From: Bacteroidia bacterium | GTDB taxonomy: Bacteria > Bacteroidota > Bacteroidia > 2-12-FULL-35-15 | Direction: 5' to 3' | DNA length: 64,000 nucleotides | Assembly: GCA_030654175.1 (NCBI GenBank) | Contig: JAURXZ010000008.1 | Coordinates: 365,426-429,425, forward strand | Shown here: positions 3,781 to 53,473 of the stretch, one piece after another | Position numbering within the stretch: position 1 is the first letter of the stretch | How the letters are laid out: each line of letters starts with the position of its first letter | The notes under the pieces: generated by a model | Databases searched by the model: none | What the model was told of the DNA's origin: nothing | Seen by the model: the letters and a program-made list of their open reading frames with translations, nothing else | Translations under genes and position numbers: made by a program

Positions 3781-3935
3781 CGGATTTATACTTTACGGAG
3801 GATGATATTTTTATTTTGTTGAAAAGTTTAGGAGGGCAGGGACGAATTGGGAAGTAAGACTTTTTTTAGAAATAAATTATTATAAATTATTGATAATTAG
3901 ATTCTTGCGGTGTTTTTATGAAGTGTTTGTTCCTG

Positions 3936-3974
3936 TAAGTTGGTTGAAAAAAAATATTTTTTTCAACCAACTTA
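3936..3974 (-). terminator. Terminator-like hairpin after cvfB (possibly bidirectional)
   Basis: TAAGTTGGTTG (3936-3946) pairs perfectly with CAACCAACTTA (3964-3974); the stem is extended by an A8/T7 run that supplies a T tract in both directions. It lies about 120 bp after the cvfB stop. The rest of the 3699-4092 gap holds only the rpsA promoter region. Confidence 0.7.
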
Positions 3975-5487: not shown

Positions 5488-5578
5488 GGGCGTTCTCTTT
5501 CTTGAAAAAGAAAGAGCCGGGCTTTCTGCTTCAATCTTTTCTAAACAGAAAAGGATTTACGCTGCAATCCCTAACGCA
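5488..5578 (+). repeat. Dispersed double-hairpin element, copy 1
   Basis: One of four copies in this window (others at 15009, 31218 and 53299). Order: block ATTTGGGCGTTC; stem 1 CTCTTTCTT/AAGAAAGAG; block GCCGGGCTTTCTGCTTCAATC (shown split: GCCGGGCTTTC, TGCTTCAATC); stem 2 CTTTTCT/AGAAAAG; block GGATTTACGCTGCAATCC ending CTAACGCA. Stem 2 is flanked by direct repeats of the type CGCTGCAATC. It lies between the membrane protein gene and the FAD enzyme gene. Confidence 0.85.
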
Positions 5579-15008: not shown

Positions 15009-15095
15009 GGGCGTGTCCCTGCGGGTCGGGCTTTTCGCTGCAATCTTTTCCGATGAAAAAATCGGAAAAGGATTTCCGCTGCAATCCCTCACGCA
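15009..15095 (+). repeat. Dispersed double-hairpin element, copy 2
   Basis: The flanks GGGCG and GGATTTCCGCTGCAATCC then CTCACGCA are kept, but stem 2 is CTTTTCCGAT/ATCGGAAAAG, longer than in the other copies with paired changes on both sides. Stem 1 is reduced to CCC/GGG. It starts 18 bp after the mutase stop. Confidence 0.85.
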
Positions 15096-15147
15096 AATAT
15101 CATGTAATCTAAAGGCTTGTTGGCAGAAATGAACATTAAACCCTCTT

Positions 15148-15242
15148 GTCATCCCGAGCATTTTCGCTAGGGATCTTGTTATTCTTAACGATATTGCCAA
15201 TGATTTCACAGCGCGCTGTCATTTCGAGCGAAGTCGAGAAAG
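15148..15242. repeat. Two short GTCAT hairpins (CCCGAGC and TTTCGAGCG types)
   Basis: GTCATCCCGAGC...GCTAGGGATC (15148-15175) and GTCATTTCGAGCGAAGTCGAGAAA (15218-15241) are two different GTCAT-led hairpins placed one after another downstream of copy 2 of the larger element. Related TTTCGAGCG hairpins occur at 20531-20601. Confidence 0.7.
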
Positions 15243-15303
15243 CGGGTGGACAGCATAAATAAACCTGTTTGAATGCGTAATAGTATAATCCCTAAGCACA
15301 AGT

Positions 15304-31033: not shown

Positions 31034-31365
31034 TTTATTGAATGGTTTGGTTTAGATTTTTTTTTCATTTCTTATAATTGTTCTTGTATTCATAGGAAAG
31101 CAAAAAAGCGTTATACAGAATTGAACATTTGATTAGTAATCTGTAGTTACCTGGGTTCCATGTTATTTAAGCTAAAAGCCTGATAAATGTTGCCAAATAC
31201 CTTATCATTGTCGATGCGCGTTAGGGATTGCAGCGTAAATCCTTTTCTGTTTAGAAAAGATTGAAGCGGAAAGCCCGGACCTTTCTTTTTAGAAAGGGAA
31301 CGTCCAAATGAAATAGGTTTTACATAAATTATTCAATTTTATTTATCGAACTCTGGTTAGAACTA
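31034..31365. other. Intergenic region carrying dispersed element copy 3
   Basis: About 330 bp between the TPMT-family gene and the DUF5686 gene. The middle part is the double-hairpin element on the minus strand (31218-31305); nothing gene-like otherwise. Confidence 0.6.
31218..31305 (-). repeat. Dispersed double-hairpin element, copy 3
   Basis: Minus-strand orientation. Read on that strand: ATTTGGACGTTCC, stem 1 CCTTTCT/AGAAAGG, CCGGGCTTTCCGCTTCAATC, stem 2 CTTTTCT/AGAAAAG, GGATTTACGCTGCAATCC, CTAACGC. Its stem 2 and right flank are identical to copy 1 although stem 1 differs. Confidence 0.85.
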
Positions 31366-53298: not shown

Positions 53299-53391
53299 GG
53301 GCGTTCCACTTTCTTTAAAAGAAGAAAGTGGCGGGCGTTCCGCTTCAATCTTTTCTAAAAAGAAAAGGATTTCCGCTCCAATCCCTAACGC
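53299..53391 (+). repeat. Dispersed double-hairpin element, copy 4
   Basis: GGGCGTT, stem 1 CCACTTTCTT/AAGAAAGTGG (10 bp), GCGGGCGTTCCGCTTCAATC, stem 2 CTTTTCT/AGAAAAG, GGATTTCCGCTCCAATCC, CTAACGCA. It lies between convergent yajQ and aspS. Stem 1 has two base pairs (CCA..TGG side) not present in copies 1 and 3. Confidence 0.85.
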
Positions 53392-53473
53392 AATATTTTC
53401 AATGAAAAGATAATTCTAGCCTTTATTGGCTTTAACCAAAATTAACAATTGAAAACAGGTTACTAATGTTAAA

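Follow-up and report, generated by a model that had tools for sequence, protein, structure and literature searches.

The four copies of a dispersed palindromic element in the window (the whole 64,000-nucleotide stretch of Bacteroidia genome analyzed here) are ordinary members of an already described family, Rfam RF01705 (Flavo-1). We favor, with modest confidence, the reading that Flavo-1 is a mobile palindrome, non-autonomous and present in many copies, that resembles REPs and MITEs in its behavior and acts as a folded single strand. Its full three-way-junction anatomy, its strand polarity, its T-tract target, and its conservation in place appear not to have been described before.

All four copies match the full RF01705 model (positions 1–76) on the strand opposite to that of the first-pass annotation, with scores of 48.2–67.6 bits against a gathering score of 42 and E values of 2.5e-7 to 1.1e-12. 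With every copy over the gathering score, the resemblance of the four stretches far exceeds chance. The copies start exactly where they had been placed, and all lie between ORFs of the ORF list. The conserved blocks with differing yet paired stems are present in each, with small deviations (TTTCTGC in copy 1; GGGCGTGT and CTCACGCA in copy 2; GGACGTTC in copy 3; CGGGCGTT and CGCTCCAATC in copy 4). The features of the window are as follows.

5488..5577, plus strand: Flavo-1 copy 1 (folded strand, minus)
5518..5536, plus strand: left repeat block of copy 1, CGGGCTTTCTGCTTCAATC, whose partner is the right block
5553..5570, plus strand: right repeat block of copy 1, GGATTTACGCTGCAATCC
15009..15094, plus strand: Flavo-1 copy 2, of the GCGTG/CACGC closing-stem subtype
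15027..15045, plus strand: left repeat block of copy 2
15070..15087, plus strand: right repeat block of copy 2
31148..31162, plus strand: terminal inverted repeat TACCTGGGTTCCATG, degenerate (4 mismatches to AACCTGAGTTCGATT), at one end of a composite of ~211 bp with copy 3
31218..31305, minus strand: Flavo-1 copy 3 (folded strand, plus)
31225..31242, minus strand: right repeat block of copy 3
31259..31277, minus strand: left repeat block of copy 3
31344..31358, minus strand: terminal inverted repeat AACCAGAGTTCGATA (2 mismatches) at the other end of the copy 3 composite
53299..53391, plus strand: Flavo-1 copy 4
53332..53350, plus strand: left repeat block of copy 4
53367..53384, plus strand: right repeat block of copy 4
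53447..53461, minus strand: right terminal inverted repeat remnant AACCTGTTTTCAATT (3 mismatches), beyond copy 4

A different, dispersed-looking repeat, GTCATTTCGAGCGAAGTCGAGAAAGC with its partner CATCCCGAGC, lies at 15144-15244, directly after copy 2.

The anatomy of the element is derived from an alignment of copies from the genome of the window (G000; 5.1 Mb, 51 contigs) and about 25 other genomes. On the strand of the first-pass annotation, the element reads T-rich sequence, GGGCGTT, hairpin 1, NNN GC TTTnC GC TnC AATC, and stem 2, followed by GGATT TnC GC TnC AATC N'N'N' and TAACGC. A GCGTT/AACGC closing stem encloses the variable hairpin 1 and a long arm, forming a three-way junction. 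Inward from its NNN/N'N'N' base, the arm consists of TT/AA, a 3x3 loop, the GC/GC helix, a second 3x3 loop, AATC/GATT, a bulge, and stem 2. The direct repeats TTTnCGCTnCAATC are present around stem 2, as had been annotated, and beyond that claim they pair with each other; below the variable stem 2 they form the 2-bp GC/GC helix, which has a 3x3 GNA/GNA loop on either side. The earlier description as a double hairpin is right in that both stems pair, but the stems are parts of one three-way junction on the opposite strand rather than two independent hairpins. With ViennaRNA, the minus strands of copies 2, 3, and 4 fold into the three-way junction; for copy 1 the program prefers an alternative arm. 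An extra outer stem of TTTCATT with AATGAAAG was rejected, as shuffled flanks pair at least as well as the real ones. The arm with its internal loops and GC/GC core corresponds to the minus-strand consensus structure of RF01705, whereas hairpin 1 and the GGGCG subtype's closing stem lie beyond the end of the Rfam model.

Some copies carry further repeats. In L431, L433, L417, and L424 of G000, CCTTCGACAGGCTCAGGATAAATTCC-type inserts, which look like another small repeat, occupy one or both internal-loop positions. The tips of hairpin 1 or stem 2 bear the palindromic repeats CCTCACCCCC..., GGCGGCGGC..., and CAGGCTGAGCCTGTCGAAG in L010, L015, L066, L080, L083, and L105-L117; the hairpin tips look as if they were collecting palindromes.

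The paired segments vary in concert. The arm base NNN/N'N'N' occurs as GG/CC, CC/GG, CT/AG, and CA/TG, the 2-bp core as AC/GT, GT/AC, and C-G types besides GC/GC, and the closing stem as GCGTT/AACGC, GCGTG/CACGC, GCATT/AATGC, and GCCTT/AAGGC. In a scan that scored every one of the 741 column pairs in 123 unique cores of 39 columns, the core pairs come first: the predicted pairs rank 1, 2, 3, 5, 9, and 14, and the other column pairs among the top 13 fall within the same 3-bp base stem. The compensating stems of the first-pass annotation are supported. With the G000 copies alone, ranks 1–3 are predicted pairs. The top pair scores 136 against a column-shuffle maximum of 14 in the unweighted run, whose null ignores phylogeny; with weighting at 85% identity, a run with too few effective sequences, two predicted pairs stand clearly above the shuffle maximum of 4.7. 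In addition, some near-identical copies are distinguished by a compensatory change of one core pair, which, together with the repeated independent pair types, argues against an artefact of ancestry.

The pairing of stems 1 and 2, taken alone, could persist through hairpin template-switching without selection. However, template-switching cannot account for a covarying 2-bp core between loops that stay TnC/TnC, and the core is therefore stronger evidence for selection than stems 1 and 2. The earlier proposal of selection on the structure, or of its replication, and not of a simple repeat, is accordingly supported by a core that covaries between conserved, unpaired 3x3 loops.

Several features distinguish the two strands. 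Among the non-Watson-Crick cells of the two variable stems, 21 are wobble pairs on the minus strand and 5 on the plus strand (P 0.002), and the folding energy is lower on the minus strand in 116 of the 122 copies. Read on the minus strand, the conserved mismatches are the GNA/GNA loops and an A.G pair, which can form sheared G.A pairs. The wobble bias and the folding energy identify the minus strand as the folded strand; they do not decide between RNA and DNA.

The element is abundant in G000, where 134 of the 150 candidates scored match RF01705 at E ≤ 0.001 and about 130 copies exceed its cut-off; 124 unique copies were gathered region by region. The element is high-copy, intergenic, and palindromic; only 3 of 122 copies overlap an ORF of at least 90 aa. 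The relatives of G000 are uncultured freshwater Bacteroidota MAGs. Within one genus, the copy number ranges from 0 to >130, and many related genomes have none. The genes neighboring the G000 copies are both on the plus strand in 36 cases, both on the minus strand in 38, convergent in 31, and divergent in 15, and the copies show no orientation preference relative to adjacent genes. Single-strand transposition often leaves a strand bias; no leading- or lagging-strand bias of copies was found by contig. Neighborhood clustering reveals no recurrent adjacent gene, the clusters being shared loci or resampled places. A search of plasmids and phages gave one weak partial plasmid match and no phage match.

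The element disperses. Two copies are 100% identical over the whole 91-nt element while their flanks are at random identity, and in the relatives examined no copy adjoins the ortholog of the mutase gene that precedes copy 2. The left junction in G000 is T(T/C)ATTT, with ATTT at positions -4 to -1 in 76/92/95/80% of 122 copies. Comparison within a second genus, that of G055 and its relatives, shows the element at each of two orthologous intergenic sites in 3 of 30 genomes, and site 1 holds a variant element in two further genomes. The element at site 1 starts directly at the T-tract of an intrinsic terminator, and the empty sites of this genus keep the same terminator. The species in these comparisons are about 80% identical, so that exact junctions and target duplications are unreadable and gain is not always separable from loss; at the window's own loci, too, the relatives are too diverged to supply an empty site. 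At L069 (G009:C1:80000-88000), an Rhs-like region that also has an IS1-like transposase ORF, two Flavo-1 copies lie about 0.9 kb apart. Besides the core, they have in common at least 15 nt on its upstream side and about 40 nt on its downstream side.

In the mechanism we propose for a mobile palindrome, the minus strand, when single-stranded, would fold into the three-way junction. A putative trans-acting enzyme would recognize this fold by its conserved loops, not by the letters of its stems, and would copy or move the strand to sites just 3' of T-rich sequence (terminator T-tracts or T(T/C)ATTT). The inserted copy would then be retained vertically, its fold staying under purifying selection. 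We infer the moving form (single-stranded DNA rather than RNA), the reading of the fold by an enzyme, and the reason for which copies are retained. Against such an element, no mobilizing gene was found among Y1/RAYT genes, reverse transcriptases, integron-type recombinases, and neighboring genes. A more specific version, possible although we hold it only tentatively, is a mobile nucleic acid recognized by its three-way-junction fold with tandem GNA/GNA loops, which would be inserted 3' of terminator T-tracts by an enzyme that is not a Y1 transposase, a reverse transcriptase, or an integron integrase, and would then be domesticated in place. Under that version, insertion 3' of the T-tract means that the folded strand would precede an A-tract, a SINE-like geometry.

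Inserted copies are conserved where they stand. At the two orthologous loci of the second genus, comparisons between species give identities of 96, 85, 90, and 90% for the element, compared with 47-75% for the adjoining 60-80 nt and 81, 78, 81, and 61% for the next 240 nt upstream, which are largely coding. At site 1, L472 shows paired changes from CGC/ACG to CCT/AGG in the base and from GC/GC to GT/AC in the core; it may be an independent insertion at the same T-tract. L468 and L469, also at site 1, keep the ends and the unusual base unchanged but have another interior (CCGCACTCGCT...GAGCTCAGACAATTGC) and no Rfam match. Together with L105, they represent a sister class with the same ends and a different interior, CTTTCCGCACTCGCT ... 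GAGCTCAGACAATTGCTGCAATC, which in two genomes occupies the site where others have Flavo-1.

The conservation at these two loci could reflect host function instead of recent mobility. Flavo-1 would then be a host-beneficial DNA structure, for example a nucleoid-protein site, a gyrase site, or a polymerase roadblock at gene 3' ends, that spread formerly and is now kept by the host. The intergenic position of the copies, their avoidance of divergent promoters, their placement after terminators in the second genus, and the two loci conserved above their flanks with paired differences between species are all consistent with this explanation. However, no protein partner is known, and the distribution is so patchy, with most species lacking the element at those loci and many related genomes lacking it altogether, that the element can have no essential role. 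We regard it as rather doubtful.

A structured RNA is unlikely. In this explanation, a minus-strand transcript acts in trans as a small RNA, or in the UTRs of its neighbors as a cis-regulatory RNA. RF01705 has the Rfam type 'Gene; sRNA', and Weinberg et al. 2010 rated Flavo-1 as 'probably' RNA and not cis-regulatory (PMC2864571). The G-U-type wobble and the GNA/GNA loops are natural in RNA, and the fold is selected in place. However, the copies here behave as dispersed DNA rather than as an sRNA gene with a gene orientation: about 130 of them face either way with respect to genes, without bias, and their number varies from none to more than 130 in one genus. In published RNA-seq of F. psychrophilum, Flavo-1 matches occur in sense and antisense alike, and many show no transcription (PMC9723704); these data, negative or unclear, reveal no consistent transcription. 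By its sequence, the folded strand also lacks a terminator-like T-run at its 3' end.

Some copies of this lineage, a minority that includes copy 3, lie inside MITEs of ~210-250 bp with 15-bp terminal repeats AACCTGAGTTCGATT. The element might accordingly be the MITE of an ordinary DDE transposon with these terminal repeats and the Flavo-1 core only its cargo, which we consider quite unlikely. The left repeat, at up to 4 mismatches, accompanies 11 of 122 copies compared with 1 in a reversed-orientation control, and a second MITE of ~227 bp without Flavo-1 is bounded by the same repeats. However, most G000 copies have no terminal repeat, the right-hand repeat hardly exceeds the control, and identical cores occur without common flanks. 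Of the 36 genomes of the genus, only 7 have the exact repeat, among them G007, which has no Flavo-1; the repeat is absent from the Flavo-1-bearing G003, G004, G011, G013, G014, G026, and G034, lineages in which the core has spread all the same. A TIR-type transposon as the general carrier was rejected, being confined to one clade with its repeats missing from most copies. Because the repeats bound a Flavo-1-free MITE and are missing in most other copy-bearing genomes, the AACCTGAGTTCGATT MITE is a local carrier; the DDE-MITE explanation is thus largely refuted as a general account and stands for a lineage-specific carrier. A search for an autonomous transposon with AACCTGAGTTCGATT repeats found none. 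The repeats also occur in G007, G015, G017, G022, and G027, and several contigs of G007 and G022 break at them, which suggests a multi-copy autonomous element. The Flavo-1-free MITE of ~227 bp is seen in L415, L416, L419/L428 (G000:C31:478343-478568), L423, and L426, and contains two palindromes, CCACGTCTTAAAAGACGTGG and CCACGGTCTTCAGACCGTGG.

Transposition by a Y1 (RAYT/IS200-like) enzyme, as for REP/REPIN elements, is very unlikely. Flavo-1 resembles REPs, REPINs, and the PATEs of IS200/IS605 in being short, palindromic, high-copy, intergenic, and non-autonomous, with hairpins and a conserved 5' target-like motif at a fixed left position, and G000 has five Y1_Tnp matches, three of them full-length. 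However, a transposase gene flanked by repeat copies is the hallmark of REP/RAYT systems, and Flavo-1 is near none of the five Y1 loci of G000 and near one of ~30 from copy-bearing relatives, 1.4 kb away in a copy-rich genome; the linked RAYT gene suggested earlier was thus sought without success. G044 (27 copies, 98% complete), G050, and G031 have copies but no Y1 gene, so that linkage and co-occurrence are both lacking. Flavo-1 also differs in being a three-way junction of ~90 nt rather than one or two small hairpins with GTAG, and in the varying sequence of its closing stem.

A folded, attC-like recombination site of an integron-type tyrosine recombinase is most improbable. The logic proposed here, in which a folded strand with a variable terminal stem is recognized, is shared with attC sites, and in contig C244 of G031 a recombinase gene is directly followed by a Flavo-1 copy and then by an array with higBA and two more copies. 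However, none of 18 further recombinase homologs (E ≤ 1e-30) has an adjacent copy, which leaves one locus of 19 without a consistent integrase link. The recombinase gene occurs in genomes without Flavo-1 and is absent from the copy-bearing G003, G004, G009, G013, and G014, and the GTT...AAC boxes of Flavo-1 vary and run in the opposite sense to those of attC. The G031 locus (L224, G031:C244:1-4231) encodes a 411-aa tyrosine recombinase with best NCBIfam matches to XerA/integron integrase, below cut-offs; its array holds three Flavo-1 copies and a HigB/HigA toxin-antitoxin pair, and an attC-like site is seen by eye at about 3836-3955. The closely related G005 and G031 have their copies in common except for those in this array. 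Retro-mobilization of an RNA by a reverse transcriptase was rejected, as six copy-bearing genomes (G003, G014, G021, G026, G031, and G034) lack any RVT_1 match.

For 15 years this motif has been filed as a probable RNA of unknown function; it now looks like a mobile DNA element of Bacteroidota that folds as a single strand. If this is true, Flavo-1 'sRNA genes' in these genomes should be reannotated, and a mobilizer that recognizes shape rather than sequence exists to be found. If that enzyme is neither a Y1 transposase, nor a reverse transcriptase, nor an integrase, Flavo-1 would represent a type of bacterial mobile element for which no mobilizer has been described. In addition, inserted copies are better conserved than their flanks, and mostly better than the adjoining coding DNA, which raises the question of the role of folded DNA at gene 3' ends.
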